DNA from: Trichinella spiralis | Taxonomy: Eukaryota; Nematoda; Enoplea; Trichinellida; Trichinellidae | Direction: 5' to 3' | Assembly (NCBI GenBank): GCA_000181795.3 | Contig: CM012955.1 | Coordinates: 4,592,999 to 4,656,998, forward strand | Length of the DNA: 64,000 nt | In this document: one piece after another, positions 29,199 to 63,694 of the stretch | Position numbering within the stretch: the first letter of the stretch is position 1 | Layout: each line of letters begins with the position of its first letter | Notes under the pieces: model-generated | Told to the model about the DNA's origin: nothing | What the model saw: the letters and a program-made list of their open reading frames with translations, nothing else | The model's database searches: none | Program-made: the position numbers and the translations under genes

Positions 29199-30193
29199 TC
29201 ATTTCTGCTTCGGGAAAGCCGCCAATGCGTCTTTCGTGCCTCCAATAACAAATAATCCAAACTGCAACGGTGGGTCAGCAATTTTCAATTTAAGTTCCTT
29301 TTCTATATCTCTGTCTGCAAATACAACGACTCTTCTTTCCGCTGAACGCAAACAAATTTTTCTTATCGAATCCAACGCATTGTGCAGGCGGTCATCAAAT
29401 GCAGCGCTTCTTTCACCACTGCAGTTTTCTTGAAGCTTCAGTGAACTTCTGAAAAACAAATTTACAAACTTTTCACATTTTTTAAAAGTATAGACTCTAT
29501 ATCACTTTATTAAGATTATTTTGAATATCTACGAGAAAAGATAAAAATTTTCATCTTAATCTAAGCATAGAAAGGATATACTCGAAAATTATCTAAAATT
29601 GGGCTGTAAAGTTCATCTGTAAAAATTCAATTCATACTTGTAGGTTTCATCAATACGATGTCCACGCTGAACAACGTATGATCGAAGTTGGTTGCGCAAG
29701 TAATCATCTTCGCCTAATTCACTCAAACCTCCTTCAATTTTGATATTCAAAGTTCTCCATCCATTTTTGACTCCACCTTCGTACCCTTGTAAAAAAATCA
29801 GCAAATTATCATATACATGATGATCATTTGTATTTGCATAATGTTACCTTCAATGAAGTTAATAGCTGCAGCAACACACTTGAAGCTCGGCTCGCAAATC
29901 ACATCGGTGATATTTAAGCCCGCATCACATGATGCTGCACCCATAAGGCGGGATTTTCTTTCAACCAGTGGAACGTACGGGCCGTTCCATAATGCCTCGT
30001 TTTCCCCTAAAAGTGGTATACGGTCAGTATGTATTTCTTTATTCAAAGAAAGTTCATTACTGCATTAATGATTACCTGCACTGAGAAGTGGAAGAGATAC
30101 TTGGTTATCTCGAATCAAGATGAACCACAGCATCGAATTAGGATCCTCATAATAAGCAGAGGAGCGAAGAGAGGAAACTTCGATTTCAGACAT
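29199..30193 (-). CDS. Unrecognised four-exon family, copy A
   Basis: Four exons on the minus strand (30193-30076, 30007-29846, 29785-29638, 29448-29199; phases 1, 1, 2) give about 225 residues. Exon 1 has MLWFILIRDNQ. Exon 2 has LNITDVICEPSFKCVAAA and ends NFIEG. Exon 3 has LNIKIEGGLS and RGHRIDETYK. Exon 4 has RRVVVFADRDIEKEL. No signal peptide, membrane segment or known domain is visible. Acidic and hydrophobic residues alternate as in a small alpha/beta protein; conserved VVVF and NITDVI look like buried strands. Copies B-E share these exon borders and motifs. This copy lies 19 kb from the others and is the most different in exon 1, lacking the FDSW-type motif. I do not know its function. 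Intact splice sites and frame indicate a functional gene. Confidence 0.8.
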
Positions 30194-31223
30194 GCTTACA
30201 GGTCTGCTCACAACACAACAATCTCGATGTATGAAATGAAAACTGAATTCACTCCTGTATTTAGTGTTTTAAATTTAAACAATTGTTCTTTAAAATAAAT
30301 TTAAACTTTTCAAGTTTAAAAGTTTCTTAATAATACACCAATGGTTATTGCCGTCTAGTAGATATTTTAAAGAATATAATTAGAACTACTAATTCAATTA
30401 AGCATTATTCAAAAAAGTACAGTCATTTTTTTTATTTGGCATCTTTTCTTTCGCATTGCCATTTTTCTTGCAATTGTATTTGCAGCTCTGTATCTGCAGA
30501 AAAACGAGTGGATCAGTTGATTCTTTTACATCTAGAGTCTAGAATCTAAGCATATATATATATATATATATATATATTCAAATTTATTTCAATTTTTTTC
30601 ACACAATCGTCCTCTGTCGCAAATGAACACTGTACTGCTTTTCAGAATATACGCAAGTTGCATGGGAAAATTTATAAAATCATGCGAGCAAATATGACCA
30701 TTTAATTTCAACATGCAGACAACAGAATTGCGTTAATTCATAAACTATAGAAGAACGACTTCGTCAAATGAAAGAAAGCTTAAAATTGAATTACATTTGC
30801 TAACTGCATCATAAACTAATTTGTTGGATAGATTCCTTTTACAGAGAGAAGTTTTACAAACTGTCATCATATCCTCTGAATATGTTTGTTAGGGTTTGAT
30901 TTAAACAAACTATATACTGCTGAATAATAATGTTTCACAATATTTTATAATTTATTTTCATGATCGAATGGGAAAAGAAAAAAAATCAAAGAGAGAAAAA
31001 AAGGAACTCCAATAATAAAACACTGACATGCTTCGATTGTATTTGGGTGGGAAAAAATCATCCATCAATTCTATCAAATGGATGAATACTGTTGTCGCAG
31101 AATAAAAGAGTTGTGAAATTTGTATTTTTTTTAATCAATAACCAAACGCCAGCAAAACAGGTACGATGCAGACTAGCAGTGCAAAAATGCATGCATTACG
31201 TACGAGTCTGAGTCTGAGCATGC
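30194..31223. other. Intergenic spacer between HADHB and copy A
   Basis: Upstream region of copy A (minus strand), so its promoter should lie just above 30193. It includes a (TA)n microsatellite at about 30552-30577. No other feature was identified. Confidence 0.55.
30552..30577. repeat. (TA)n microsatellite
   Basis: About thirteen uninterrupted AT/TA units, read directly. Confidence 0.9.
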
Positions 31224-33270
31224 TCAAGGGTAACGCTCGAGGAGCATCGCGTGGCCAAGACCGCCGGATGCACAGGCCGATACGAGTGCATACTTGCCGC
31301 CTGTGTCGATCAGGCGATTCGCTGCGTGAGTGACCAAACGGATACCAGTTGCCCCGAACGGATGACCAATGGACAACGAACCTCCCCAAGTATTCAGCTT
31401 TTCCAAAGGAATCGCGCCGACCTTCAAAGTTGAGCACACAACATGAGACTGACATGATCGCTCAATTTTGCGTTCAACAGCACCAGCTTACCTTGCTCGA
31501 CTTGCCAAGGAATTTTTCGGCGAACAAATCTGAATCCAACGCTTTCAAATTAGCAAGAATTTGCCCCTTGAAAAGAACACAAAATCAAAATTGAATCAAA
31601 TAATAATACTAATAATAATAATAATAAGCCTTACGGCAAATGCTTCGTGCATTTCGAAAACATCAATGTCGCTAATTTTCAGTTTTACTTTGCCCAACAA
31701 TTTTGGAACCGCGTACGCAGGTCTGAACAAAACAAAAAAACAGTAACATCGCAACAAGGAGTTGCTGTTGCTCGGCAACAAAATTCACCACACCCCAACA
31801 GAAGCTGATCTTTCGGATCCTGTGCCACGTAGACATAATCGCGCAGGTAAACTTTCGGTTTCAAGCCCAACAATTTCGCCTTGGCTTCAGAAGTTATCAA
31901 ACAAGCCGACGCCCCATCACTCTGAAATCAAACAGTTCTGATTGTGCAAGTTCCCACGGCTAACAATAATGGTAGGATAAATAACAAACCAAAAATGAAG
32001 AATTTCCAGCGGTAATGGTACCGACATGCTTGCGAAATACTGGCTTCAATGATGAAAGTTTTTCCAAAGTTGAAACTCGAATACCGTTGTCGTGATCAAT
32101 CAATTTTTCCGTGTCTAAACACAAACAAATAAATAAATAAACTCTTTTTCATTTAATCAGAACTTTATCAAAGCAAAAATAGAAATTTACTTGGCAATAC
32201 AATTGGGATGATATCCACCATCTTCCCCTCGTCAAACGCCTTCTTGGCCAGCATGTGACTTCGCAGTGCGTACTCGTCCTGAGAACAAAACAAACAGAGC
32301 AATTTATTCAAAAAGAAAAAAACAAAATTCGAATTCACAATTAACACAGCACTTGTTCTCTTCTAGAAACTTTGAAAGAAGAGGCCAAACGATCACCTGA
32401 ATGTCCCATTGTTTCGCTGGACGAAAATTCAGAAACGGATGGAAACTGCAAGCATGATGATGTCGACAAATATAAAACAAACAAATAAGAATAATAACCA
32501 ACGCCCACTTACTTCAATGTTCCAGTTGGCAGGATTCAGCAAGCCAGAAAGAATCTTCAACCGCTTCGACATCGATTTCGCGCGACTCAAGTCCAACATC
32601 CCGCATCGCAGCTGACGACCCAGGCGAATCGGCACATCGCTCATCGATTCCACACCTCCGGCTAATGCAACTTCACAAACTCCTGAACGAACCGACTCCA
32701 AGCCTGAGATGAAAAAAGCAGTGAAAACAACAAATCAACACGTCCAAAGCACGATGTAACTGTGATCGTTTTCGAAACCGACTTACAGCTAGTTATAGCC
32801 TGATTGGACGAGATGCAGGCCATGGTGACCGTGTGCGCGGGAACAGTATTCGGAATACCGGCGTGCAGTGCAGCCTGTTGGTGTTCAGAATTTAAAACAG
32901 GCAACAATTATGTTTTGGTTTTAATATCAAAGCTCAAAAAAAAACCTCTCTTGAGACGTTCGTTGTTCGAGCCTCTTGTATCACAGTACCAGATACAACG
33001 TACTGAACAGTACTGGGCATAATCTTCAATCTGCGAAGCAGACCTCTGAAAAAGAAACTGTCACATTTTCAGAGCAGCAGCAACACGTCGTGGTGGTCAA
33101 TTGACCAGTGGACGAGTAGAATTCAGAAATAAATATCCACAGCTGAAATATCGTACAACAAGCGCGTACTTACAAGAATGCGTATTTCTGTAGTTCGTAA
33201 CTAAGCAAGCTCTTGTACAACGTGGAAGATTGAACAAACGGTGTTCGAATGCCGTCGACCATAACAGGCA
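31224..33270 (-). CDS. HADHB: Mitochondrial trifunctional enzyme subunit beta (3-ketoacyl-CoA thiolase), first exon(s) not found
   Basis: Catalyses the last step of long-chain beta-oxidation, cleaving 3-ketoacyl-CoA with CoA, in the matrix-side complex with the alpha subunit. About ten exons are read on the minus strand: MVDGIRTPF (about 33260), [19 protein letters not shown] (about 32990), [15 protein letters not shown] with the acyl-accepting Cys (about 32830), [12 protein letters not shown] (about 32640), [15 protein letters not shown] (about 32400), GNSSFLSDGASA (about 31940), [13 protein letters not shown] (about 31820), DVFEMHEAF (about 31655), [15 protein letters not shown] (about 31360) and [12 protein letters not shown] with the second catalytic Cys (about 31250). 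The order and motifs match trifunctional beta rather than ACAA1, ACAA2 or ACAT. All catalytic positions are present. The mitochondrial presequence exon was not identified; it should lie between 33280 and about 34640. Confidence 0.94.
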
Positions 33271-34421
33271 CTGTTCGATTTTGAAAAACAATAAAAGAAA
33301 ATCATCCGTTAAATTGATCAAATATACTGAATTGAACAGAATAAAATTAATTACAATTCTGACCGGCTGCTGATGCGTAATGACGTGACAAACGAACAAA
33401 AGACGAGACAAAGCAGCGCTGACTGAACATTTTTTTCTCTTTTCTTTCTTTGTCCACAAAATAAAATATTCAAAATTATGCAAAAACAAACAAACAAACA
33501 AACAACAACAACAACAACAACAATAAATACAACAAAGAGTTGACGTTTCACGTTGTCAGGGAAAAAAGACATTATCAGACAAAAGTGTACGCGTATGTGC
33601 GCTTGCTTGCCTTGGAACTTTATTGTATTCAACGGCATACAGTATAAAACTTGAACAAAAGCAACAACAAAATAGGCAAACGATAAAAACATGACGAATC
33701 GATGCAATTGATGACAATCGAGTGTAAAATATTAAAAAAACACATTTTCATTGTTTTTGTTTTGTTCAAACAGCAGCTCCGTGCAACAAACGCAGTCGCT
33801 GATTCTTATGCAAATTTTCACACAGCTGCGTTTCCAAAGGCACGTAAATCCTTCTGTAATTTTTGATGACGTTCAAGAATTAAACAAAATTAAAAGAACA
33901 ATCGCGCCGGTTGGACAAACAGTCTTGCACACTAGAAAGTTTAAACATATAATAAAATAGAATAACAATAATAATAAAACCTATTTCATCTAAAAGCCTA
34001 GAAATAAAAAAGAACAACGCTTACCACTCACCTGCATCGATGACGCGATCAAGTTGAAGTGAAATTCAAATTAAAAAAAACATAAAGAAAAAATTAAAAT
34101 TTGAAAATAAACAAACAACGAGCAACAATAAAAAATGAAGAAACACGTGAACTTGACAAACAGTGGAGACAGACAATACGTAGGAAAATAAAAGAAAAAC
34201 CAATTTGCATAACAGGAGAAAGGAAAAAAAGCTGCAAGTGAATTAACTTCTTCAAAGCTGACAACAATGCATCGAGCAGCAACGTAACGCAACAGAACAT
34301 AAAGTAATAGAATGAAAATGAATATGAAATAAAATGATGCGGCTTTTTGTAAAATTCTCAAAGTGAACAACAGAGAGCATAAGCAATTGAAACTGCATCA
34401 GCGTTTTCATTACCGTCTCTT
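33271..34421 (-). other. Low-complexity 5' region of HADHB
   Basis: Expected to hold the missing presequence exon(s). It is dominated by CAAA and CAA microsatellites (33484-33525), A-rich sequence and long but biased Phe/Val-rich antisense frames that look spurious. A short minus-strand frame starting at an ATG near 33948 (MFKLSSVQDCLSNRRDCSF) is basic and could be a presequence, but it has no clear donor. Confidence 0.35.
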
Positions 34422-34640
34422 TCAACCGTTCATTGGTCGTTGATCATCATGTTCGGCCAATCCGACCAGCCAGCCATCCAGCCAATCATCTGCTAACGTG
34501 CCGACCACCATCATTTCGCCAACCGTCTTCCCACTTTTCTCTCCGTGCGTGCTCCAAAGACACGGTCCAAAGACTTCTCTCTTCTCGAACACAGTGACGA
34601 CGATGTGCCGTGCCTTCAAAGTAACTCCATCAAATAACCG
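34422..34640 (-). promoter_or_regulatory. GC-rich probable promoter/leader of HADHB
   Basis: A GC-richer 220 bp patch with several CCAAT boxes on either strand (TCATTGGTCGTTGA at 34430-34443, GGCCAATCC near 34455, GCCAATCATC near 34480). A minus-strand frame of 65 codons crosses it, but it is acidic and unlike a mitochondrial presequence, so I read the patch as promoter or leader. The ACGACCAATGA box recurs in the small elements near 49.1 and 51.8 kb. Confidence 0.4.
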
Positions 34641-36804
34641 CAGTTAGAGGACCCACGCATAAATATCATAACCATTATCATTAACTTCTTTAAAAGCCGC
34701 AGCCGAGCGTCATGACATTATACATTTTAGTTTATCCATCGTCCAATGGTATACATATTTTCTCTGTTCCATTCACAATTAATCGATTAATTTTTTTTCA
34801 TTTTAAAAATATTAACCTTCTGTAATAGACGACCATGATTATTAAAGAAAATATTTAAATTTAAAAATTGCACGTCTCAATGTTACACTCCTGTTAATGA
34901 AGATCTTTATCAACTTCCACATAATGCCACCATTTATAATGATAATAATTATACAATTTGACTGCGCCACTGCATAATTTCATTGTTACACATCTTATCA
35001 AGTTAACAAAATCCTTGTTGGTTATTATATTATGATCAATTAATTGCTTTGAAAAAAATATTTTCCAATTTTCTTTTCATCATAGAAACACAACGCCCAC
35101 ACGCACACAACAAACACACACATACACAACACACAGAGAAATAGAATGTAAAAAACACAGAAAACATACACGAGCAGACAAACATAGTCTGCATTCAAAA
35201 TGATAATTAATACAACACAATTTGCATTATTTTTTTAATTCTTTCTTTCTTTTCAGAACAACTCATCACCTCCTGTCACCGATATCAACAAAACAGTGCG
35301 CAACAGAAGCAAACTCTCATGATAATAAAGAATGCGGAGTCAGAGTTTTCTTCATCATCATTTTTCTTCCCTTAGCACCCAATTCTCTGACCAGATCAAA
35401 AATAATACAATCACTTTATATGATTTAAAATTCACTTTTTAATTTTCTTACACAATAACTGTTATTCAACTGCTATCTGTCAAAAGTTGCTATACAGTGA
35501 GAGCTATTATTCCGTTTCCCTTTTATTATTCATTTATTATTATTATCATGTTATTTCTCAACTACCACATTCACAGAACACAGAAACAAAGAATGTGCAA
35601 AACAAAAAAAATGTATATAAATATATAAACATTATTATTAAAGAACGTTTTATAAAAATTATTACAAAAAAAAAGAAATGAATGTTTCACACACACACAT
35701 ACACGATCGCAGAATGATGATACATACAAATTTAATTTACAAAAGAAAAAACTTTCTTCGACATTTCTTGACAAAGCACTTCCGTTCACTAACCTGCAAC
35801 GCATAAATTGGCATACAATTCTTTTTTTCGCATTCAAAACAGAAATAATACAAGTACAATTATTCAACGTACAAACGTATATTATTATTATATAGTTTGA
35901 ATTTAAGAAAATGAAATTTAATAATTTTTCAAATAAACAAAAACCACACAACTACTCAAAAATTGCAACTTTAAAATTTTTTTAGTGCATTGTTAAGTTC
36001 GATGGACAAGTCTGCTTTAAGAAACTGCCGAGTGGAATTTTACATTCCAATGCAACATTACTATTAATTTTTATTGCGTTACTACAAGCAGAGAGAAACG
36101 GAACACACATGGCAAACAAAAGAGTATACTTTCCATTTTAAAAGCAATTAAGAAAATATTTAATGAAACATGCCTTGCGGACGTGAACAACAAACGAATA
36201 GGAAACGCAACAATTAAAGCAAAGCATGTCTTTTCACACTACATACCACACATTACCGCTGGCTTTATTATGGACCGATATATCTACTATATTGTTTTTT
36301 TTGATGAAAATCATCTTCTTAATATTAGTTACTTTTTTAAGATAATAAGAAAAATTTCAATAATGATGATAATGATGATAATGATAATATTTGCTATAAA
36401 TAAATAAATAGATTCTGTAAGAGTGACAAAACACAGTGAAAACGGATAATTTTCGAAACCAACAGTACAACTGCTACCTAGCAAGATAACTCGGTGAGCA
36501 GCGACGTCCATCGAAAATACAACTACGATAAACCAAACAAAAATAGGAAACTGATATCACGCGGCGGTATTCGTACCAAGTTAAATTCATTGTCGAAAAA
36601 TTCTTTTACATAAGAAGATTAAGCTGGCGATTAAATTAATGTATTCAATTGTTCAAATAAACGAATACTCCATGGATACCTAGAAGACACATTAATAAAA
36701 CTTTAATGCTTTGCCAAATCTAATTAAAATCAAAACTGTCATGGAAAAACACGGTTTTATCCACGATTAAAAAGCAGCTTGCCAATGAAACTAACCTCAT
36801 AATT
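34641..36804. other. Low-complexity intergenic spacer
   Basis: A/C-rich and AT-rich sequence including CA-rich tracts (35090-35130, 35685-35705) and TCA/ATA runs. A 22-codon exon-like segment after an acceptor at 35257 was considered too short to call. Otherwise empty. Confidence 0.5.
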
Positions 36805-39236: not shown

Positions 39237-40075
39237 TTTTAGGATATGCTAAAACAATACCAACAACACGATGATACACAATTACTCTGCTTGCGAAGAA
39301 TACGGTAAGTCATTCACCACAGAAACCAATCGATATTGCCAACCTAAACATCAATAAAGCTGTTCGTTGTGATTTTGGTAAAAAGTGAGCTATTGCTTTC
39401 GAAAATTTTTAATAATTTAATTAAAATTTAATTCATGCAATATTCAAGTTTATTCATATTTTTTAATCCACAAGTTTAACGCAGCTCACTTTATGACATA
39501 CTGTATTAATGAAATTTTAAGTATCTGTCAAAAATGCTAAATTGTAGAATATGTTTGTTAAAAACATTTTCTAAATAAATTACTCTAAACTAATAGACAT
39601 ATACCAATATTTTAATGCTTGAGAATAAACTTTCCGCGTCATGCTTACTGTGGGAGGGGTTGATGACAGAATTCAATAAAGTATAAAAAAATATTTATTT
39701 TGATTAAAATTAAATAGAATTTCATTATTATCTAGAAAAAATTAATCTAATTTGTAAAATGCTATTGAAAAGACCTTTAACCCAAAGTTACTGTTTTCCA
39801 TTTGTTATTCAAAACAAACATTTTCAACTATTTATTTCAACTCAAATTCGACTCTTTAGATTATTCAACTTAAGATAAACATGAAATAATAAAATTGATG
39901 AAAAGAAGCGGTCAATATCGGCTCTATCTGTGACAAGTGCTTATTCTGAATAGTCGTAATATTCAGTGATACAGTATGCACGTTACTGTTGACAGTCAGC
40001 AATTAGCAGTTAATTTTATAATCATAGACCGTTGTGAGAAGAGTTTTTTATTTGCAACATTTCAGTTTGTTCGTA
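39237..40075. other. Divergent intergenic spacer
   Basis: Upstream region of the minus-strand KH gene and of the plus-strand island at 40076. A GC-richer stretch close to the KH start (39240-39360) is probably its leader/promoter. Otherwise AT-rich, nothing recognised. Confidence 0.45.
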
Positions 40076-44119: not shown

Positions 44120-45430
44120 GGCTGCTAAACGACAGAAACAGCAAAATTATTATTCAAGCATTATCATCATCTAGTGTTAATCAAATAAACAGTCTTTGTG
44201 ACGGTGAAAATGAAAAAGCAATGCATTTCCTCGACAATGAATTGTTGATAAACAAGTTCTGAAGAGATAAAATAATTGAAAATCAAAAATAATTAAGCTA
44301 TAGTTCATAATATGGATTACAAAACAATTAAATATAAAATAACATGTAATACAGTGTTGAATACTTAAAAACAAAAAGAAACCTGTCAGTGTTTAAATAA
44401 CAGCAAATAAGTCGAAAACAAGAACGAATGACCTACATCGAATGACTGTTCACTTATGCTTCAAACGTAAACGCTGATGTCATGCTTACCAAAATAAGTA
44501 ATGAAAAACACTGTGCTAAATACCTCAAAAATACGTCACGCACACAGGGCAACTACCTTTTTCCCATACGACTTTCTTTTATAAATTACAGTATCAAAAC
44601 AGAATGACAGACAGGTATTAATATTAATATGAAGTCAACAAACTACAACAAAGTGACAATAATAAACAATTTCTTAAAACATAAACACTTTTTATGATTT
44701 TAAAACATACTATTTTTTAAAATAATGCTATGATTTAAGTACTATTTCAAAAAAAAACTTTCAGAAACATAACTCTATTTTTTAATTGATTGTCAAATAC
44801 GAAATTAAAAGCAGCATAAAAATCAACTGAATCAAAAAATTTATTTAAAAATTCTGTAAAATTACAAAAAATACATATTTATTTATCTTATTTATTTCTG
44901 TTGGCCACTGTTACAGTTATACTTCAAGAATTTCTAAACGCAGGTAAACTGTTTGCCACTTTCTTGGTTTGTTAAGTTGATACTAATGTTGAAATTATTG
45001 CTGTTATGTATTTTCTATTTTTCTTAGACTTTTTAAAGTTTTATCTGTCAGCGTTTAAATTATTAAATGCTATACTTTTAAATATAACGAAAATAACAAT
45101 AAATTAGATAAAAGAAGAATAATAACATTGAGATAAAAAATTTAAGATCATATTTACGGCAAAAATTTTACACTTCCAAAAATTCACTCAATTATACTAG
45201 AATTTATTTAAATTAACTTTCAGAAATAAAAATAAATGGTTTACTTCAAAGTACTTTGTCGAAACCTGATAGTGTCAAATTTAATAAGTAAAAAATTTAT
45301 TTAAAATTTTATTAATTATATTAATTATAAATACTAAACAAACGGCTGTTTATCTACTTTGATGTAGGATAATAGGAATTATACTTGAAGTTTACAAAAT
45401 GTACAGTATCACATATTGAAACCACTGAAT
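44120..45430. other. Intergenic spacer
   Basis: Divergent region between the minus-strand CX gene and plus-strand CFAP20. AT-rich; a small uORF (7 codons) starts at about 45399, just ahead of the CFAP20 start. No X-box or other recognisable control site. Confidence 0.5.
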
Positions 45431-46000
45431 ATGCTACGGAACACTTTTCAAAGTGGATACTTATCTTTACTTTTCAGTCTTGGAAATAATCCATTGCAAA
45501 TTTGGGATAAGCATGCTTCCAAGGGAACAATTCAAAGACTCGAAGATGGCGATATAAAATCAGAAGTAATAGAATTGTCGTCAAACACTGTTTGTGAAAC
45601 ATTCATATCATGCCCTATTTCTTCTGAAGACGTCCTGGCAATAAAGCTTCCCTTTTTAATTCTGACAATTAGAAATATGGAAAAATACTTTTCATTCGAA
45701 ATACATGTTCTCGACTCAACTGGGGTGCAAAGAAGATTTTGTGTGAATAATTTCCAAACTTGCTGCAGAATAAAGCCAGAAATTTGCACTGTGCCTTTGA
45801 GAATGGAACCTGGATGGAACACTGTTCAGTTCAATTTAATGGACTTTACAAAACGTGCATATGGGACAAATTTCATTGAAGCTCAACGCATCATTATCTA
45901 TGCAAATTGCCGTTTGCGCCGAGTGTTTTTTTCTGATAAACCTTACCGGGAAGACGAAATTCCAAGTGAATTTCGCCTTCTTTTGCCAGTTAAAAAATGA
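45431..46000 (+). CDS. CFAP20: CFAP20 (BUG22/GTL3), ciliary doublet inner-junction protein
   Basis: A single uninterrupted exon encodes 189 residues, near the usual length of about 193. It reads MLRNTFQSGYLSLLFSLG, PLQIWDKH, IKLPFLILTIRN, YFSFEIHVLDSTGVQRRF, VPLRMEPGWNTVQFNLMDF, RAYGTNFIEAQRI, RVFFSDKPYREDE and FRLLLPV, covering the whole protein in order. CFAP20 sits at the inner junction between A and B tubules of axonemal doublets; it also occurs in organisms with only non-motile cilia and has been linked to nuclear transcription roles. I chose the ATG at 45431 over an upstream in-frame non-ATG codon because it aligns with the family N-terminus. It is the only intronless multi-domain-size gene in the window. 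AATAAA signals follow within 80 bp. Confidence 0.97.
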   Translation: MLRNTFQSGYLSLLFSLGNNPLQIWDKHASKGTIQRLEDGDIKSEVIELSSNTVCETFISCPISSEDVLAIKLPFLILTIRNMEKYFSFEIHVLDSTGVQRRFCVNNFQTCCRIKPEICTVPLRMEPGWNTVQFNLMDFTKRAYGTNFIEAQRIIIYANCRLRRVFFSDKPYREDEIPSEFRLLLPVKK

Positions 46001-49464: not shown

Positions 49465-50447
49465 TCATTCTTCGATTTGCGGAGTAAGAATGGAAATTCC
49501 TACAGAAGAAACATGAATTTTCACCGCTGCCTTCAATCCAACAAATGCTTCCTTCAGGACGCTCTCCAAAGATTTGTCCACGAATACAACGACCATTTCG
49601 TTCATTGAACATGAATACTTCGTTCTCAGTGATTCAACTGCAGCGTTTATCCGCCATTGCAGATTAACATAAGGGTCAAAAATGCTGCTTTCTGGGCGTT
49701 TAACGGAAGATCTGAAAAAATTCATACATTTTTCATTGCATTCCAGCACTATCTTGTATCATGTTATTAACATATTTAAGAATATATACAAAACAGATAA
49801 AATTTATGAAAGTGATCTCAGCATGCGAAAAATAAACTTTTTGAAATTTATCCAAAGTACGAATGAAAAAATATTTATAAAACTTTAATTCATACTCGAA
49901 GGTTTCATCAACACGATATCCACGTTCAACAGCAAGTGAACGAAACTGCTTCTGCAAATAATAACCATCGACAGACAGACTGAAACCACCATCAACTTTA
50001 ATAGTCAAATAGTTCCTGCCATCATTTCTTCCACGTTCGAAACCTTAAAGTAATAATCAGCACACTACGAAATTCATGATGGTCGCTTATTAGATTAATG
50101 TTACCTTTAATAAAATTTTCAGCTGCGGTAACACAGGGGAAAGATGGCGCACAAAAAACATCAGTAATATTGAACCGCGCATTTTGTGATGCTGTGCCCA
50201 TGGCTCGTGATCGGCTTTCTGTCATTGACGGAAATTCAGATTCCCTTACATTTGCCTGGTTTCTAGCTAAATTCAGACTACGGTAAATTTCTTTTTGAAA
50301 AGAAGGTTTCTTACAGTATTAATGATTACCTGCATCGAGACGTAGAAAAGGAAGTACATCTTCTTCAACTAGAATAAACCACAGCTCTCTTCTAACATCC
50401 CATCGAACCGACCACGAATCAAAAGTGCTCAAATCAGATGACAACAT
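49465..50447 (-). CDS. Unrecognised four-exon family, copy B
   Basis: Four minus-strand exons with the same phases (1, 1, 2) as copy A give about 225 residues. Exon 1 starts at 50447 and has STFDSWSVRW and ELWFILVEED. Exon 2 (ending near 50103) uses the acceptor TTTAG/CTAGA, because the nearer CCGTAG acceptor would run into a stop; it has MTESRSRAMG, FNITDVFCAPSFPCVTAA and NFIKG. Exon 3 (about 50045-49897) has YLTIKVDGGFSLS and ERGYRVDETFE. Exon 4 has MNEMVVVFVDKSLESVL. Alignment to copy D is closest by eye (shared DPYVNL.WRINA in exon 4). No signal peptide or membrane segment; the function is unknown. The gene appears intact. Confidence 0.8.
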
Positions 50448-53280: not shown

Positions 53281-53303
53281 TATGATTGTTTGCATTGTTT
53301 CCG

Positions 53304-54276
53304 TTAGTTTTCATCTTCCTTGTTATTCTCTGCAGAAGCTGTTGAACTAGTAGTACATTTATCCGTTGGTCCCTTTTCCTTTAGGCCTAAGCGTTTGAGG
53401 ATGCTTTTCAGAGAACTGTCTACAAACACAATCACTGTGCTTCCCACAGAAATTGGTACGTTTTTTACTATATTTTCAACAGTGGCAACAATGCGCCGCT
53501 CCAAACTTTCAGACGAAGAGGAACTTGAATCCTGCGGACATTCTGTGAAAGTTCTAAAAAATATGAAAATTCCTCATTTTTTAGAATTATTTTGTACAAC
53601 TTCATGAATATGAAGAAAAGTGATAAACATTTTCATATGTGAGCATACAAAGATAGAGTTTAGTGAAAATTATTTCAAGGACGGTTATTGAGTCTATTTG
53701 TGACAATTTAATTCATACTTGTAGGTTTCGCTAACATTATAGCCACTTTCGGCAGCAAACAATTTGAACTCTTTGTGCAGGTGGAAAGCGATGGGTGTCT
53801 TGCTTAAACCACTTTCAATTTTGATATTCAACTCCTGCTCCGCGAATGTTAAGCTACGTTGGTATCCTTATGAAAATAATTGGCAAATTATCAAACAGAT
53901 GATGATCACTCGTATTTGCATAATGCTACCTTTAATGAAACTATTAGCAGCAGCAACGCACTGAATGTTGGGTGCTGAAATCACACTGCTGACGTGGAAT
54001 TTTGTATTACTGGCTATTGTGCCCATCTCTAGTGATCTTGATTCTATGGTTGTTAAAAGCGGGCCGCTAAATGCGTATTCCTTTTTTCCCTCTAAAAGTG
54101 TAATTCGGTAAATATCGTTTTTTAGACGACGATTTATTACTGTATTAATGATTACCTTTGTCGTTGGAGCGTGGACGTATTAAATCGTCCTCTTCCACTA
54201 GAATAAACCACACAATTGGAATCGTTTGCCACCAATACGCCAATGTCTCAAATTTTTCCAAATCGATTTCCTCCAT
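53304..54276 (-). CDS. Unrecognised four-exon family, copy C
   Basis: Minus-strand gene with the family's four exons, about 228 residues. Exon 1 starts MEEIDLEKFETLAYWW and has IVWFILVEEDDLIRP. Exon 2 has FSGPLLTTIESRSLEMG, FHVSSVISAPNIQCVAAA and SFIKG. Exon 3 has LNIKIESGLSKTP, HKEFKLFAAESGYNVSETYK. Exon 4 has GSTVIVFVDSSLKSIL, followed by a Lys/Thr/Ser-rich, acidic end (NNKEDEN). It resembles copy E most in exons 1-3 and shares an upstream block with it. The frame and splice sites are intact. No function assigned. Confidence 0.8.
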
Positions 54277-54317
54277 TCTAGCTACGAATTCGAACCGCTC
54301 AAGTTGTCTGCGCAGAG

Positions 54318-54404
54318 CAAAAGAATTGCTGCTGAATGAAATTAAAACTAAAGATGATCTTATTTAAACTTTTATTTGCTTTAAAATAACATTAAAACAA
54401 ATGT
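54318..54404 (-). promoter_or_regulatory. Conserved proximal upstream block of copy C
   Basis: From CAAAAGAATTGCTG through GATCTTATTTAAACTTTTA to ACATTAAAACAAATGTG, this block is nearly the same as 63738-63824 upstream of copy E, and partly as 56487-56569 upstream of copy D. It begins about 40 bp before each start codon. TTTAAA could act as a TATA-like element. Promoter role is inferred. Confidence 0.5.
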
Positions 54405-54839
54405 GATTTAGTTTAAAGTAAGCGTATTTGTTTATAAACATTAAATTTTTCAATATTTAATATTAATCCAGTATTCATTATTTATATAAATATTAATAAT
54501 TTCGTCGTAACAAATTTATAAATGAACTTTCCAAACAAAAAGAATAGTAGTAGATAAATCTGCATGCAAAACATATTCATATTGTCAGACGTAGAGAATA
54601 TTTTCTCTTGGCATGGGTACTGTGTCTGTTGTACCGCAGTGATTTGAAACAAAAAAATGTTTCTATCAGACTGATTTTGAATTTTCTTAATTCGAATTAA
54701 TTTCACCTTTTTGCAACATACAATATTTGTTCTTGAGCATCACATTCAACTGTAAACAACTAAAACAGTAACAGTACTATCATTACCTTTACACATCTGC
54801 AAAAGTTATACAACAAATTTATTTCAAATTTTACAACAA

Positions 54840-55440
54840 CTCAGTCACTTTTATGAGTATCACCATTATTATTATTATTATTATGTAAATGGTGATTTAT
54901 GATCAAAAATAAAATTAGTAGTATCGTGTCACTGAAAAATTGGTTTTGTACCACTTGGAGCAAAGTATTATCACTTCCAGTGCTTAGCAAAGTGAAGCAT
55001 AGCTTCTGTTGAAGAACAAAAATTTTGACCACTTAGAGGCAGAGTTCGTCAAATTAACTAACCAAGTTGTGTAACCGTGACAATACAAGCCATGCATGCA
55101 GTGAAAATTTTAAAAAACGTTACTTTACAAATAATGAATTGAAAACTGTATCAATTAATAGAATTCTAAATCAAAATTCATTATGAAAATAGCTTATTAA
55201 TTTCCAACATTTAGCATAGCTCGCGCGCATATAAACAAATGAAACATAATTTTATGTTATTTTATTAACAATTTGATAATTTTGAATAAAATGATGCTTA
55301 TAAAAAACATTCATTGTTCATTTTAATAAATACTTTCTAAGAAAATAATTTACATAATAAATGAAAACGTAAATATAACTGCTGTGAAAATAATGAAATG
55401 GATAATAAATATCCGATCAGTAACTTTCATTGATGACATT
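54840..55440. repeat. Duplicated 3' flank block of family copy D
   Basis: A more diverged counterpart of the flanks of B, C and E: AAAATTTTGACCACTTAGAG, ATTTAGCATAGCTCGCGCGC and the TTATTATTATTATTATGTAAAT run align in order. The YY1-like motif is lost and the X-box is degraded (GTAACCGTGACAAT at 55071-55084). Confidence 0.7.
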
Positions 55441-55447
55441 TATGCCT

Positions 55448-56443
55448 TCATTTTTTCATATCATTCTCAGCCAAAACATCTTCTGGTATAGGCGGAACAT
55501 GCATTATGAACGGTAGAGGTGGTCCAACAGCTACTCTCGTCAGCACGCTCTCCACAGATTTGTCTACAAACAGAGCGACCATTTGCTCCCTTATACCTGT
55601 ATACTCCATCATCAGCGACTGTACTATCGCATTTATCCGCCACAACAAATTAACATATGGGTCAATAACTTTACTTCCTGGCCATTCAACGGATTCTCTA
55701 AAAAATTCATAAATACTTTATTTATTTTCAGCACCCTTTTGTATGCCTTTATTGAAATCATTAAAAATATATACAAAATAGACAGAAATTTTCATCTCAA
55801 TATGAGCATATAAAAGATAACTTTTATTGAAACTTATCTAAAGTAGGAAGTCTAAAGGTCTATATGTAAAAATTTAAATCATACTCGTAGGTTGCATCAA
55901 CACGATATCCGCGTTCAATAGCCAGTGATCGAAACTCTTTGTGCAAATAATAACACTCGACAGTGGAACTCAACCCTCCATTGATCTTTATTTTCAATTG
56001 TTTTTTTTCATCGCTATTACCACATTCGAATCCTTAACAAAACAATCAACAACCTGTGAAATGCATGATGATCATTTTTTATTAGTATGATTTTACCTCT
56101 GATAAAATTATCTGCTACATTAACACACTTCAAACTTGGTGCACAAATGACATTAGTGATATTGTACTTTTCATAGCGTGCAGCTCTGCCCATCGCGTAT
56201 GATTTTGCTTCTGTCATTGCTATAGACGAAGAGTTCCACACGTTTTCTTGGTCACTGTCTAAATTTCGATGACGTTGAATATTATTATTTTTGAGAAGAA
56301 CGTTCATTGCTGTATTAATGATTACTTGCATCAAGAGATAGATTAGGAATTTCATCTTCTTCAACCATAACAAACCACAACATTTGCGTAGAATTCCAAT
56401 GGAACACCCAAGAGTCAAAAGAGTCGCAGTTGCACTTCACCAT
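55448..56443 (-). CDS. Unrecognised four-exon family, copy D
   Basis: Minus-strand four-exon gene, about 225 residues. Exon 1 starts MVKCNCDSFDSWVFHW and has MLWFVMVEEDEIP. Exon 2 has MTEAKSYAMGRAA, YNITNVICAPSLKCVNVA and NFIRG. Exon 3 has LKIKINGGLSSTVE, HKEFRSLAIERGYRVDATYE. Exon 4 has DPYVNLLWRINAIVQSL and QMVALFVDKSVESVL. Closest by eye to copy B. It lies directly downstream of the copia relic on its coding strand, about 0.5 kb away. Frame and splice sites are intact. No function assigned. Confidence 0.8.
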
Positions 56444-56486
56444 GTTTGTTCAGATCTGTATCCGGTTTTACTGCACTCTTCCACAA

Positions 56487-56569
56487 CAAGAGAATTGTTG
56501 ATGAATATAAAACTAAAACCAATCTTATTCATGCCTATATTTTGTTTAAAGTGACATTAAAACAAATGC
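56487..56569 (-). promoter_or_regulatory. Conserved proximal upstream block of copy D
   Basis: A shorter, more diverged version of the block at 54318-54404, keeping CAAGAGAATTGTTGATGAA and ACATTAAAACAAATG. It lies about 45 bp upstream of the start codon. Confidence 0.4.
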
Positions 56570-56629
56570 CTTTTTTTTTAATTTAAACAAAATGTATTTG
56601 CTTGGAAAGTTTAAATTTTGATTTGGTCC

Positions 56630-56790
56630 AATCCAATTCTAAATCTTCACCGTGTTTTGTTATTGGTTGTTGACTGCCTTGTCTTATTGGTCGTTCACAA
56701 CGTTGTCTTATTGGCTTTCCTAATCTAATTGTTCATTGATTCAAATTCTTTAGTTGTGATTAGCTGCAATATGCTTTTATTCCATTGGTT
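56630..56790 (-). repeat. CCAAT-box cluster, inverted relative of the 49 kb and 51.7 kb elements
   Basis: Three ATTGG boxes at 56662-56666, 56686-56690 and 56710-56714 (further ones near 56624 and 56783). CGTTGTCTTATTGG matches the reverse complement of CCAATAAGACAACG near 51718 exactly over 14 bases, and CTTATTGGTCGTT nearly matches the reverse complement of the AACGACCAAT core. It lies about 200 bp upstream of copy D and may act as its promoter. Confidence 0.5.
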
Positions 56791-56969
56791 CAAATATTCC
56801 CATTTAGGCTGACGTAACTTGAATAGTAGTGACGTAAAGTTAGTAGTGAAAATTTTTATTATTCCAAAATTACATTGTTTGATCTAGTCTAAGTTTATGA
56901 CGTTTTATCATTCGCCTTTTTAATGTATTATTTGTGGTGAAGTTTATACTTGTTGTATATTTCGGTAAC

Positions 56970-57480
56970 ATTGATTGCAGTGATCAGTGAACGTACAACA
57001 GTATAGCGTTTTCTGCTATTTACTGACTAATATAAACAAACACACACACAAATACACACACTACGAGCAAGTTATACAACAGAGAATACACCATACTACT
57101 AACACATTCACGCAACAACTAGGAATATCAGTACATATACAGGATAAATAGTAAAGATTAAAGAATATACAGAAGATAAATAGTAAAGCTTTGAATATCA
57201 GAAAACTGACCATTAAAAAAAATCAAAATTTGACAAATAGTACGCATTACAACGACAACCAGTAAAAATTTAGGTTTCTGACAACGAATAAAACTCATCG
57301 CAACAACAACTAATGAAATTTAGCCAGGTGGAAAACCAATGAAATTTAAAGCCAATCAAATGTCGAGCGCCATGCCTTTGAAGTCAACACCGGGAGTAGA
57401 CCGTTCCTTGCCAGTTTAAGGGCATCCATAATAATTTTATCTTCTACCATAACAGGAAATCTTCTCAACCATCAATATGT
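56970..57480 (-). repeat. 3' LTR-like end of the copia relic
   Basis: Shares AGTGATCAGT, AACGTACA, CTGCTATTTACTGAC, GGAATATCA and the end TTCTACCATAACAGGAAAT with 59450-59690. It is longer than its partner because of internal insertions, including duplicated AGGATAAATAGTAAAG-type units at 57140-57190. Confidence 0.7.
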
Positions 57481-57689
57481 TGCAGCACATCTACGAGCAT
57501 TTCGCTACAATGTTCGGCAGCATCTGTTCCGCAGGTGGATATCGCAGTTGTTCATCCTTTATCACCGGTGTCACTTTGCAGTGAACTAGTATCTGATGTC
57601 GATGTGTTTGCTTCTCGCGTGGAATACTGGGTTCCTTGCCAGTTTGAGTGCACCTTGTTTGCCACTATGCAAATTTACTGACTTGCTTA

Positions 57690-57960
57690 TGCCGGTTATT
57701 TCTTCGATCCTTCCGTTTGAGGTGCACTGCTTCCTTGCATACTTCTGACAATGCCATATACTCTGCCTCCGTACTGGACAGTGCAACGGTTCTTTTGTTT
57801 CCTTGATTCCCAGCTGATCGCGGCATTGCCAAATTTGAAAACGTAACCAGCGTAGAATCTGCAGTTATCAGAATTTCCGCCCCAGTCAGCGTTTGAAAAT
57901 CTCATGAGGGCTCTTGGTGAGTTTCTCTGGAAACGCAGTCCATAATTTTCTGTCTTCTTC
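57690..57960 (-). pseudogene. Copia RNase H domain fragment
   Basis: The minus-strand frame reads GLRFQRN, FSNADWGGN, FYAGYVFKFGNAAISWESRK, the standard copia RNase H layout (SDADWA...SGYVF...ISWSSRKQ). The following catalytic block is displaced by a frame change near 57770. Fragment of the retrotransposon, not an active gene. Confidence 0.8.
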
Positions 57961-58239
57961 AAAGAGCAAAGGACACTTCAGCCACAGTCCATTGCTGCTT
58001 GCCATAATTCTCATTGAATTAACTGAGTAGACTTACGGCGAACGCATTATCTTGGAGGGTAGATAGGTTGAGGTGCATCAGCGACTTAATCAGCATCGGC
58101 AGCTTTTCTTTGCCCATCTTTCATACCAAATAGCTTTTCACACCCAGCTTAGGAGGCTCTTTTCATTCAGATGATTTAAGGTGTCTGTGTCATTCCATTA
58201 ATGGAGGGACATTGCTTTCAGCGATAGCTGCTATAAACG

Positions 58240-58600
58240 ACGGACTTTCGACACAGTACAAATCACAGTCCTTGTACGCGACCAAAACCGTTCCAAGGTT
58301 GGGGTTTGTAATTATGGCGGAATTTTCTTGGAAGATCACTTCGAATCCCTTATTTTTGCAACTGAAAGTAGATTCGACCTAAGGTCAGGGACGTAGAGTG
58401 TGTTGTCCAGCTGAACGCTTCTCAAACCGTCGCTGCTTGGGATTTCCAAGTTAGCCGCTCCAGTTCCGTTAATATCAGTCGATTTGCTATTCGCAAAGCT
58501 CAATGCTCGTTTCATAGTTTTCATGGAGTGAAATATTTCCTTGTTAGAGCACATATGAAATGCTGCTGCTGATTCTAAGGACCATTTCGAATGGGATCGG
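58240..58600 (-). pseudogene. Copia protease/pre-integrase fragment
   Basis: The minus-strand frame has HMCSNKEIF-like residues followed by LDNTLYVPDLRSNLLSVAKI, the typical region between copia protease and integrase. A frame break occurs near 58340, and sequence before 58590 continues in another frame. Confidence 0.8.
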
Positions 58601-58759
58601 CCGCCTATGCGAAGGGAAATCTCAGACGTTCTGTCCGGGTAGCTGTTCTGATGGGATCATTTGAGTGTTTCTTCACTGCTGCTGTGGCTGACGAGCAAAG
58701 TTTGATCTCGGCAATCTTTCGCCATGTGTCCTACTCTCCAAGGCGATGGCACTTATATT

Positions 58760-59330
58760 TGAACCATTTTTCACTGTCTTTCGGATGAGATTACTCAATC
58801 GGAGGCTGAGTATTTTTCAACTGAGACTTCCTTCTGGTAAACATAGAGCATCATCATGTTTCGATTCTCTGTTCTTGCGGGCTTCATATTCTTCCAACAA
58901 TTTAATCTGTAAGCCTTCTGGTTTCGGCAACTAGTCGTGAGATTCTATCGCAATTCGAAAGCTTTCATGCGAATCTGGAATAGCGTAAAGCATGAGAATC
59001 GAAAGTAGGTCATCTGCTATCTCCAAGTCCATGGCCTTCAAATTGGCAACAAAATTGAAGAATTCCTTCAGGAAAACATTCATGCTTTGTTCCTCATTCA
59101 TTTTGTTGAGAATGAGGCGTTTCAGCTTTTGCCTTATGCCCATTTAAGTGCGGCTTCCAATGATGATTTGTCATCTTTGACAATTTTCCACCTTCGTTTT
59201 GTGCCGCTCACAAAACTTCCCAAAGATCGGTCTTGACTAATATAGCGTGAGCCTGCAATTTCCACGTCTCGTAGTTTTCCTTACCGAATGGCTCGATTTT
59301 CACGGTGGTGTTCATGACGAATGCAGTGTG
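58760..59330 (-). pseudogene. Copia gag-like fragment
   Basis: Starting near 59313 on the minus strand the frame has GKENYETWKLQAHAILVK, as in copia gag N-termini; after a frameshift it continues as a UBN2-type segment (LKEFFNFVANLKAMDLEIAD, 59143-58931). A zinc-knuckle-like stretch near 58760 is out of frame. Broken by at least two frameshifts. Confidence 0.8.
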
Positions 59331-59449
59331 AGAGTAAACGTTAACGTACAAAGGACAATGTTTTCCACTGGATACAGACAACAATCAATTCGTCTTACCG
59401 CAGAGGAAGCCTGCTGGGCCCATAACTTGTTCCATATTTACGTGAGATT

Positions 59450-59690
59450 CGTCTCAGTGATCAGTTAACGTACATCAGTATAGAGTCTGCTGCTATTTAC
59501 TGACCAAATACAAACGAACACGCAATACGAGCGCGTTAAACTACAGTAAATACAACACACCGACTTCTGACATGGACACGTGACAAGGAATATCAATACA
59601 GTAGGAATATAAAGATAGTTAAGCATAATGATTCTACTACCGTAACAGGAAATTTTCTCAATCAACAATTTGTACGAACAATAGTTTTTA
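59450..59690 (-). repeat. 5' LTR-like end of the copia relic
   Basis: Partner of 56970-57480: CAGTGATCAGTTAACGTAC, TGCTGCTATTTACTGACCA, ACAAGGAATATCAA and TTCTACTACCGTAACAGGAA align in order. It is visibly diverged from its partner, which suggests an old insertion. Confidence 0.7.
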
Positions 59691-61230
59691 GTGAATAATG
59701 TTAAAAATAATTTTTACATTTAATTTAACCTATAAAAATAATTTTATCATTATTCTGTATTTCATTGTATTACAGTAACGTCATATAAAATGTTACAGTA
59801 ATTACTCAGCCAAAACAACGCAAAAAAATAATATGTTCAATAGTGATTATTTTTCACTATCGAACAGCAGCAACAACATCAGTAAATAACAACCAAACTA
59901 AAGTAATCTCAAATAACAAGGAATACATGCTGTACATTCAGCGCATAATAATACATGTAAACATCTCCAATATTTCTCTTTTTTACGAGTGTTTAATTTG
60001 CATACCCTAAAAAGGACATGCTACGTACCACGATTTAGTACAAGGCATAGTTCAGATATATTAGCTATATTGAGTACAAGGGACGGAACAGAAAAATAAA
60101 ACTTTCCTCAACCTGAGAACTTATATGCTGTTCGAAAAGGTGTCAACAAACAGTTGTTTCCGCCCGTCAGATAAAATATATGCTATTTTACTAGTTTTAT
60201 GCATATGGTGCATACACCTTTGTCAGAAACTATTCAAGTTTCTTGTCACATTGGATGAATTGAAAATTGCGATATAAGCACAAAAGGAAATGATAAATTG
60301 ACCACAGCTGAAGCTGTTCAGCTAAAAATAGCAGTGGCAACTGCTAAATCTTAGCATCGAAATATTTTTCTGATTTGAGCGTACCTGATTTCTTCAAATT
60401 TTTTTCGTTGCCACCAAAGAATTTGGATTTTTACAAAGTTTCCTTTTCATCATCGACCAGTGTAATTGCGTTTATTTCTCGGTTTTATTTGAATGAAAAA
60501 TAAAAATATGGAATTTGATTTACATAGAAAAAGTTATTTATACATTTTGTGTAATTTGTGTAAATTGTGTTTTTCAAGATACAAACTAAACTGGGATATC
60601 GAACATTAAGTTGCCATTGCTTTACCATTTGCATTTGCAACCGTTGGCAACATTGGAACTTGTATTTCAACGATACAAGAAATGTTGAACATTCAATAAC
60701 AAATGCATTGACTATGATTTAGCTGATCAATGCATTTTCATATAATTTTAACCAACAACAGATAACAAACAACATTGATTTTCTATCTATATTTCTCCAT
60801 CACACATGTAGATTATCCATCTTATCTCTGCGATAACGCTGATCTTATCTCTTATGGGTTATAACTGTCGGCAGGCGTAAAGCATGGATTTGTTTTTCAT
60901 ATAGAAAAACATTGTAAACATTAAAGTAAAAAATCCATGATATTAAACAAGAAACACTTTTTTCACAAAATACGTAGATAATCTGTTTTTTTACAATTCA
61001 AATTCCAGATTTTGTTTTTTAAAATAAAGGAAGTTAGATGACATTCCATTGAACAATATCTAGACTCACGGGTAAGACAAAGTTTCTTTTTCCCGGTGTT
61101 TTCCTTATTTTAGTGAGAGCTAATATATATAAACAAGATTTTGTTTAAGGGTTGAGTTTCCATAAGTTTATTGATATAAAACAAAATTGTTTTCATACTC
61201 TACCAGACTCATTTTGAGGATTTAAGGAAT
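59691..61230. other. AT-rich spacer between copia relic and copy E flank
   Basis: No coding frame of credible composition, no RNA gene and no clear repeat recognised. Confidence 0.5.
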
Positions 61231-62700
61231 TTATTCCAAATTTTACGACAACTCAGTCATATTTATGATTATGATTATTATCATTATTATGTATATAAAG
61301 ATTAATAAACAAAGATAAATTCAGTCGCATCAAGAGACTGGAAAAACGACATTGCATTATCAAAAATATATTTATTAATATTATTAAAGAAAATATAGCT
61401 TATAATTAAATGACAACTTTTCGCATTAGAATCTTTTCTGAACTTCTATTTAACCTCCCTGATTTTCACAAATGCAAAAAAACGAGTTCGGCCATTTGAT
61501 TTTATATCTAGTCATTTCAAAGTTATTTGAATATTTCTCAATCTCTTGTGTGGCAAATTAACGGCATTTATTTGAGCGTCTGTTAGAAGTGCCGATAACA
61601 AACAAGCTAATTATACTTTTTGCATTGTTCAAATTTTTGAAGTCAATCCTTCTGTAGCAGATAGTTTATTTGGCAACAGGGATTCTTGGAAGTGAACAAT
61701 CGTACATTGGGGATCACATTACCAGTGGCTCGTATAAAAGCTGTTATATCATGGCACAGGTATCATGTCATGTGAGAGCCCATTTTTCAAGTGAAAAGCA
61801 CTTATAAATGGAATGCAAGTAGAACAATTAATTGTTGGCAAATTAGCATACAAAGCATACCAATATTGTCAGAGACGGAGAATATTTTCTGAATAAAAAT
61901 AGTATTGGTTCTGTTGAAACGCATTAATTTGAAAAATTTGCATTTTCCACGTGAATTATTTTGAATTTTTGATTTCAAATTAGTTTCACTTTTTTCCACA
62001 AATACTGTCTGTCATAGAGTATCAGTTCCAATTATTACTAACAACAACAACAACAACAGTGCATTAAAATGAATATTCCCACCCATCTAAAACAATGATA
62101 TAAAAAATTTATTTCAAATTTTCCTACACCATAGATACATTTATTACTATTATTATTATTATATTTGTTGTTATTATTATTTAAATGGTGTTTTTAATCA
62201 AAAATTTCATCATCGTTTCATCAGCATCGACCCACCGGAAAACTGGTTTTGCAGCAGTTGAAGATGAGTATTATCAGTTAAAATTTGTAACATAACGAAG
62301 AATAGATTGCTGTTGAGGGAATAACGAAAATTTTTGACCAGGTAGAAAAAAAGTTGGGCAAAATGGCGGGCGGGCGGTTTACTTTTAATCGACTAAAAGT
62401 TGCGTTGCCATGGCAACACAACCCATTAGTTAAGTTTAAATAAAAAAACATCTTTACAGTACACGCAATCAAGTAAAAGCAACAACAATTATTATAATAT
62501 TTTATTAATATTTATTATAAAAATAATTTATTTTTCCGTTATTATCATCAATTATGGCATCATGGAAAGTAAAAGTTGAAACTATTTTATCTGCAATTTG
62601 ATAATTTGAAATATTTTCAAATTTAAGAAAATAATTAGCATCATAAATGAAAAATTATAAATGTGATAATAAGATGGATAATAAGATATCCGATCAGTAA
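61230..62700. repeat. Duplicated flank block downstream of copy E
   Basis: A mosaic. 61350-61810 aligns to the upstream flank of copy B (50600-51240). 61810-62030 aligns to 54520-54760, upstream of the copy D 3' block (CATATTGTCAGA, GAGAATATTTTCT, AATTAGTTTCAC). 62080-62500 aligns to the other 3' blocks and includes the YY1-like and X-box motifs. 62640-62700 (CATAAATGAAAAATTATAAA, AAGATGGATAATAAGATAT) matches 53205-53270. Confidence 0.75.
62360..62417 (+). promoter_or_regulatory. YY1-like motif and perfect RFX X-box palindrome, downstream of copy E
   Basis: AAAATGGCGGG at 62360-62370 and GTTGCCATGGCAAC at 62404-62417. The latter is a perfect 14 bp palindrome and the strongest known form of the RFX/DAF-19 X-box. 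It lies about 300 bp beyond the stop codon of copy E. Binding is inferred from sequence only. Confidence 0.55.
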
Positions 62701-62717
62701 ATTATGCATTTTGAACT

Positions 62718-63694
62718 TCATTCATCGTCGTCGTCGTCGTCGTCATCATCCTCTACAGAAGCTGGTCGTCCAATAACAGCATAAGTTTCCAACGGAACGG
62801 GATCATTGATGGTTACGATTTCCAAAATGCTGTGCAGAGATTTTTCCACAAATATTGCCACTGCATCTTGCCAAGTACCCGGAAAAGTTTTTCTCAATGA
62901 CTCCAAGGTGACCTCAAGGCGCGTCTCCAAGCTGCTTTCTGCTGAAAATTCGGCAACAGTTCTAAAAAATGCATAAATTCTTCATATCTTTTAGGATTGA
63001 TGTATATAAGTTTATAAATATTATTATGAATATTAAGAAAAGTGATAAAAATTTTCATATGTGAGTATACAAATATAAATTTTATTTAAAATTATTTTAA
63101 AAACGATTGTTGAATCTGTTTATGACAATTTCATTCATACTTGTAGGTTTTATCAATATTATATCCACTTTCAGCAACGAGCGACTGAAATTTTTCATGC
63201 TTTTCAAATGCTGCATTTGTTAAGCTCAAACCTCCGTCTATTTTGATGTTCAAAGCATTCTGACCTACTTTTACTGGACCTTGGTATCCTTATGAAAATA
63301 ATTAGCATATTATCAAATAGATGATGATCGTTCGTATTTGCTTAATGTTACCATTAATGAATGCGGCAGCTGCAGTAAGACACTTAAAATTTGGGGCGGA
63401 AATAACATTGGTGACATTGTAGGGCACATCAGTCATTTCCATGCCCATCGTTACTGATGTTGATTCTATGCCTGTCATAATCGGGCCGCTGGATCCGTGC
63501 GGCTTTTTTCCCACTGAAAGTGGACTTCGGTAAATATCTTTCTCTTAGAAGAGATTTTCATTACTGTATTAATTAATACCTTTCTCAGCATATCGAGGTG
63601 GAAGATCGACTTCTTTAACAAAAACAAACCACATCAGTTGAACGGAACCCCAACAATAAACCATGGAGTCAAAAATTTCCAAATTTTCCGACAT
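62718..63694 (-). CDS. Unrecognised four-exon family, copy E
   Basis: Minus-strand four-exon gene, about 225 residues. Exon 1 starts MSENLEIFDSMVYCWG and has LMWFVFVKEVDLP. Exon 2 has IMTGIESTSVTMG, YNVTNVISAPNFKCLTAA and FING. Exon 3 has LNIKIDGGLSLTN, HEKFQSLVAESGYNIDKTYK. Exon 4 has TRLEVTLESLRKTF, DAVAIFVEKSLHSIL, and then ends in nine Asp and a Glu encoded by a GAC/GAT repeat at 62720-62750. It is most like copy C. The acidic end could be a length-variable microsatellite. Frame and splice sites are intact. No function assigned. Confidence 0.8.

Follow-up and report, generated by a model that had tools for sequence, protein, structure and literature searches.

A Trichinella gene family with a predicted TULA/Sts histidine-phosphatase fold that lacks the catalytic histidines

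The TULA/UBASH3/Sts domain, represented by Sts-1 and Sts-2 (PDB 2h0q, 3d6a, 5w5g), and the ecdysteroid-phosphate phosphatase of arthropods (Bombyx, PDB 3c7t) are among the closest known systems to a gene family that we analyzed in Trichinella spiralis. Five members of this family lie on the minus strand of a window of 64,000 nucleotides, positions 4592999-4656998 of contig C3 in the 53.1 Mb genome. The family resembles the TULA/Sts domain in profile and predicted fold, and both display the same order of core motifs, V-x-S/A-P-x-x-x-C, A and G, followed by K/R-I/V-E/D-x-G-L/F. Unlike TULA/Sts, the family has neither RHGE nor the second catalytic His, its loop is about 30 residues shorter, and it possesses a private intron 1. 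Whereas UBASH3/TULA proteins carry UBA and SH3 domains ahead of the phosphatase domain, the family protein consists of about 225 residues alone, and a Pfam scan found no UBA or SH3 match in the five window proteins at E <= 10. The histidine-phosphatase domains of yeast tau55 and Huf are 5-8% identical to the family, with no sign of recent shared origin. The T. spiralis genome also encodes intact TULA-type phosphatases, two with introns (L008 and L045) and others without (L002, L003 and L047). They share the profile match with the family, and L008 and L045 share its introns 2 and 3; however, all five retain the R-H-x-E residues Arg, His and Glu as well as the second His, and PF00300 was called in both relatives scanned (L008, L047).

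Our analysis indicates that this family, so far found only in Trichinella, probably comprises non-catalytic cytosolic binding proteins with a predicted TULA/Sts histidine-phosphatase fold from which the catalytic histidines have disappeared. The RH[GA]E motif is absent from all 12 full T. spiralis copies and from all 48 public family proteins. Seven of the public proteins have no strand-1 motif; several of these seven are fragmentary or misjoined models. Val or Ala occupies the position of the second catalytic His (V-x-H-A) in 12/12 copies, and the single V-x-H-A pattern match in the public proteins falls elsewhere in its protein, P0049. A figure legend gives the key catalytic His as H380 (PMC10253181); in the main text of that paper neither ‘nematode’ nor ‘Trichinella’ occurs. 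The former active-site loop is among the most variable segments of the family, with a mean majority frequency of 0.34. Only the C-terminal tail, where UBASH3/TULA proteins have a dimerization segment, is lower (0.25); it is short and variable, and its end residues have a predicted local distance difference test score (pLDDT) below 50 in the models. The Arg of SLRC and the Glu of GLFE have a catalytic role in the domain. No T. spiralis copy (0/12) has the Arg, which does occur in proteins of other species, P0005, P0018 and P0031 at least.

The relation to TULA/Sts was detected by profile and by fold comparison. The family profile matched the TULA/Sts histidine-phosphatase domain with E-values of 1.9e-6 and 5.8e-8, and hhalign of the family against the intact T. 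spiralis relatives gave 97.8% over 127 columns. Foldseek on AlphaFold2 models predicted a histidine-phosphatase fold nearest to Sts-1/Sts-2, a prediction based on two models of relatives from other Trichinella species. An earlier note on this DNA had recognized no known domain and considered the family the best candidate for a new system in the window. At the Pfam level, where nothing exceeded the cut-off, the first statement holds; at the fold level it does not. The second is not supported, since profile and fold searches place all five proteins in a described superfamily, an outcome of the kind that the earlier note itself had named as refuting. A new domain without relatives was rejected on the profile, fold and intact-relative comparisons, a relation that Pfam alone would miss. 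Weak Pfam matches to CUPID and PylD_N were under the cut-off and were discarded.

Sequence searches with the family genes detected at least eight further copies and thus at least 13 in total, all on C3 (copies are named after their C3 position in kb; counts for large families are lower bounds). The additional copies are m4684 and m4688 on the minus strand, m4902, m4904, m4907, m4911 and m4914 on the plus strand, and m3333, which sits about 1.3 Mb away. Twelve of the 13 are complete, each with four exons, phases 1-1-2, a 148-base exon 3 and a product of 214-231 residues; of the thirteenth, m4907, only the first two exons were seen. On other contigs, searches with genes 1, 2 and 3 yielded one match each with E > 0.4, one of which (C1:5352929) overlaps a TULA-type locus. 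The minus-strand copies (4622-4689 kb) face the plus-strand copies (4902-4915 kb), and more of the flanking sequence is repeated. Gene 5 lies in a 2.65 kb stretch that recurs inverted at C3 4911330-4913978, and both encoded proteins are identical (Table 1).

The similarity of the five genes exceeds chance: their profile retrieved 25 proteins at E <= 0.001 (best E 1.1e-142), and seven more full-length genome copies have the same exon plan. The view of a lineage-specific family in the earlier note is likewise supported, as all 25 proteins come from Trichinella. A wider protein search gave 40/40 Trichinella matches at E <= 1; the search tool relies on shared five-residue words, so distant relatives may escape it. 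The best counterparts of gene 1 are 92% identical in T. murrelli, 61% in T. zimbabwensis and 57% in T. pseudospiralis, and genes 1-4 all have apparent counterparts in other Trichinella species with 57-92% identity. Judged from sequence, the family thus appears restricted to Trichinella so far.

The intact relatives also illuminate the exon plan. L008 (C3:13.66 Mb) and L045 (C3:10.42 Mb), both intact, contain introns as well. Both introns of L008 match family introns 2 and 3 in codon position and in phase (1 and 2), and so do, by eye, the two that interrupt the phosphatase part of L045. Neither gene has an equivalent of intron 1. That intron sits where another segment has taken the place of the active-site loop; as counted on alignments, this region is shorter than that of L008 by about 30 residues. 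The fixed exon plan emphasized in the earlier note is therefore real but mostly inherited, because two of the three introns are common to catalytically intact TULA-type genes. About 10 uninterrupted intronless TULA-type relatives are located on C1, and RHGE is kept in the three that were read (L002, L003, L047). The C1 loci L002-L006, L042-L044 and L047 are intronless frames, mostly of 303, 340 or 433 residues, and were apparently amplified independently. A protein search with L008 gave one weak match.

We also considered whether the introns are mobile or structured. All genome matches to introns 1 and 2 (5/5 and 7/7) were inside family members, in a search that recovered only some family introns and was not exhaustive; mobile introns were rejected, as these matches are confined to the family. 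Structured introns were rejected as well, because neither intron 1 nor intron 2 gave a consensus RNA fold and single-sequence z-scores lay at -0.94 to 0.58 (10/10). Rfam gave no match in the window at gathering scores.

The coding part of the family changes fast. The ratio of nonsynonymous to synonymous rates (dN/dS, Nei-Gojobori method, NG86) averages 0.60 over 65 pairs, with gene 5/m4911 left out; for the three divergent pairs that are closest to each other, the values are 0.67, 0.93 and 0.82. In 55/55 pairs of 11 copies the coding sequence (CDS) shows lower identity than the pooled introns, and in 53/55 lower identity than intron 2 alone, which agrees with the high divergence claimed in the earlier note. 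Intron identity averages 0.71-0.77, compared with 0.50 for shuffled introns (20 shuffled pairs each). In a DNase II control, CDS difference exceeded intron difference in 7/36 pairs, and in 2/10 of those with CDS difference < 0.25; the exon/intron limits of this control are crude, and 30/66 pairs were dropped because their parsed introns were short or their sites few. Well-supported clades are common to the intron and CDS trees; the coding part therefore evolves faster along one shared tree, and wholesale gene conversion that keeps introns alike is unsupported. A GENECONV-like test of the 55 pairs found only two exon tracts, in gene 4/m4904 (0/1000 permutations) and m4688/m4902 (p 0.004). Four-fold sites are faster than introns in 54/55 pairs, but 30/36 pairs of the control go in the same direction, and we dropped this comparison as a diagnostic sign; the excess of CDS over intron difference (55/55 vs 7/36) separates the family better from the control.

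Within the three close pairs, synonymous change outpaces nonsynonymous change in exons 1-3 (pooled P 8e-5); exon 2 of one pair has a dN/dS of 1.02. In exon 4, dN/dS is above 1 in two of the three pairs (1.92 and 1.83; 0.93 in the third; pooled P 0.054), a value that is suggestive only. Gene 5 and its recent inverted copy m4911 differ by five synonymous and no amino-acid changes (P 4.9e-4). Outside the coding part of this pair, 2/308 intron, 0/420 near-flank and 45/1172 further-downstream sites differ (near-gene vs distal P 6e-8). The absence of amino-acid changes and the scarcity of near-gene differences relative to distal ones indicate that the protein of at least this pair is currently constrained; the introns and near flanks perhaps are too.

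Several observations weigh against a dead TULA/Sts-like domain. PF00300 (His_Phos_1) did not exceed the gathering cut-off in any family protein scanned (5/5 and 6/6), a single family protein in the PDB search reaches only E 0.15, and the Foldseek template modelling scores (TM-scores) by query length are just 0.43-0.51. Loop residues 30-49 of the model have pLDDT < 50. The profile alignments begin at about residues 44-63, with one exception at 36, and the strand-1 register consequently depends on the models and the motif pattern. An ungapped count from the first aligned pair of VIA puts P0005 residue 26 opposite residue 380, while the pattern favors residue 28; neither of the two is His. In addition, the GLFE Glu is kept in 3/12 copies (gene 1, m4688, m4902), the intact L008 has Asp at this position, and the loop of m3333 carries an RH pair (residues 35-36), though not RHGE.

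The retained Glu, together with the predicted fold, would fit proteins that are still enzymes and use an altered active site with other residues on phosphate or in an unrelated reaction. With both catalytic histidines and the SLRC Arg gone from every full T. spiralis copy (the Arg being present in the three proteins of other species named above) and the loop so variable, we regard continued catalysis as very unlikely. The missing Pfam match and the poor single-sequence E-value would suit a fold unrelated to phosphatases, yet the profile matches, the fold search and the introns common with TULA-type genes make such a new domain barely credible. A mean dN/dS of about 0.6 would be in keeping with dispensable relics that drift after the loss of catalysis. 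We regard such relics as quite improbable, given open frames with sound splice sites in 12/12 copies, which upholds the intact frames described in the earlier note, the lack of amino-acid replacements among the five coding changes of the gene 5 copy, the counterparts of genes 1-4 in other species, and the lower nonsynonymous rate in exons 1-3.

Trichinella is an intracellular parasite. This way of life (see also PMC7846577), the fast amino-acid change, the restriction to one lineage and the predicted likeness to host regulators of T-cell receptor signaling would all be in line with secreted or host-delivered effectors that diversify against the host and perhaps imitate host Sts-1/Sts-2. In a crude hydropathy scan, however, none of the 12 copies shows a signal-peptide-like stretch, as the earlier note had reported for its genes, and among the matches listed in a literature search no report on the family was found by title. 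We thus consider effectors unlikely, and the same scan suggests a cytosolic location. Six locus tags that were tried had no literature mention, and the passages found by keyword in PMC7846577 and in PMC13334664, the 2026 pangenome of 12 Trichinella species, say nothing of the family.

We therefore favor non-catalytic binding proteins, with putative partners and binding role. An ordinary intron-bearing TULA-type phosphatase gene would have lost its active-site loop and gained an intron at the site of the loss, and the altered gene would then have been amplified. The dead domain may have kept partner or phosphoprotein binding, and such domains would occupy molecules that serve the genome's active TULA-type phosphatases as partners or substrates. 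A precedent for the use of the domain without its chemistry is UBASH3A, a mild phosphatase described as acting via phosphatase-independent mechanisms (PMC10855836). The family would separate the binding role of the fold from the chemistry, with at least one recent copy under constraint, and the genome's own intact relatives with introns permit direct side-by-side comparison. From the sequences, it appears to be a new branch of TULA-type phosphatases that is dead, multi-copy and fast-changing. A further-reaching and rather doubtful idea is a repertoire of dead decoys, in which at least 13 silent domains diversify at the former active site and in the C-terminal half, bind TULA/Sts partners inside worm or host cells and tune tyrosine-phosphate signaling, possibly including host Sts-controlled signaling. 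If so, this would be, to our knowledge, the first multi-copy, diversifying histidine-pseudophosphatase family.

The five window genes have exons of 115-121, 159-162, 148 and 244-250 bases and encode 222-226 residues. Their GT-AG introns are 63-69, 61-64 and 165-189 bases long, in phases 1-1-2. The earlier note had the start and stop coordinates of all five exactly right, and the shared four-exon plan with about 220-230 residues was confirmed. By script, genes 1-5 allowed 64, 48, 3, 9 and 75 open four-exon models, respectively, and one was chosen per gene on splice consensus; for genes 2 and 5 the second-ranked model was used, as it puts the start of exon 3 at the homologous position. Public T. 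spiralis gene models lend independent support: P0004 matches gene 3 over 226/226 residues, and P0009 matches residues 21-222 of gene 5 at 202/202. The ordered motifs listed in the earlier note are present, except that gene 1 has RGH in place of RGY/SGY, and genes 2, 4 and 5 have ETFE, ATYE and KTYK, respectively, in place of ETYK. By eye, the public models P0018, P0024, P0013 and P0019 seem to take family intron 1, whole or in part, as coding; intron 1 of T. pseudospiralis, thus read, has no stop and looks conserved across species.

Table 1. Coordinates of family features, numbered from the first letter of the window.
Feature	Position	Strand	Remark
Gene 1 exon 1	30076..30193	-	strand 1, RH replaced: WFILIRDN
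Gene 1 exon 2	29848..30006	-	chosen splice model
Gene 1 exon 3	29638..29785	-	chosen splice model
Gene 1 exon 4	29199..29448	-	Ala at position of second catalytic His: VVVFADRD
Gene 2 exon 1	50330..50447	-	chosen splice model
Gene 2 exon 2	50105..50266	-	chosen splice model
Gene 2 exon 3	49896..50043	-	chosen splice model
Gene 2 exon 4	49465..49711	-	chosen splice model
Gene 3 exon 1	54156..54276	-	splice model and P0004
Gene 3 exon 2	53930..54091	-	splice model and P0004
Gene 3 exon 3	53719..53866	-	splice model and P0004
Gene 3 exon 4	53304..53553	-	splice model and P0004
Gene 4 exon 1	56326..56443	-	chosen splice model
Gene 4 exon 2	56097..56258	-	chosen splice model
Gene 4 exon 3	55885..56032	-	38-column tract identical with copy m4904
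Gene 4 exon 4	55448..55697	-	chosen splice model
Gene 5 exon 1	63580..63694	-	chosen splice model
Gene 5 exon 2	63352..63513	-	splice model and P0009
Gene 5 exon 3	63141..63288	-	splice model and P0009
Gene 5 exon 4	62718..62961	-	splice model and P0009
Intron 1 (private to family)	gene 1 30007..30075; others 50267-50329, 54092-54155, 56259-56325, 63514-63579	-	
Gene 5 surroundings with inverted copy	61356..63999	-	97.6%, ~256 kb away, same contig

Each gene is preceded, about 70-95 bases before its start codon (for example at 54359-54368 and 63779-63788), by a TATA-like A+T block and then a conserved stretch, which together look like a shared core promoter. The block was first spotted by eye in the alignment and then placed with patterns fitted to that alignment. 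Elsewhere in the window, an intronless frame of 203 residues at 45389-46000 (+) presumably resembles CFAP20/Bug22. Two other open frames on the same strand, at 26582-27052 and 10758-11498, resemble what we take to be an ETS domain and a BTB/KCTD domain, respectively.

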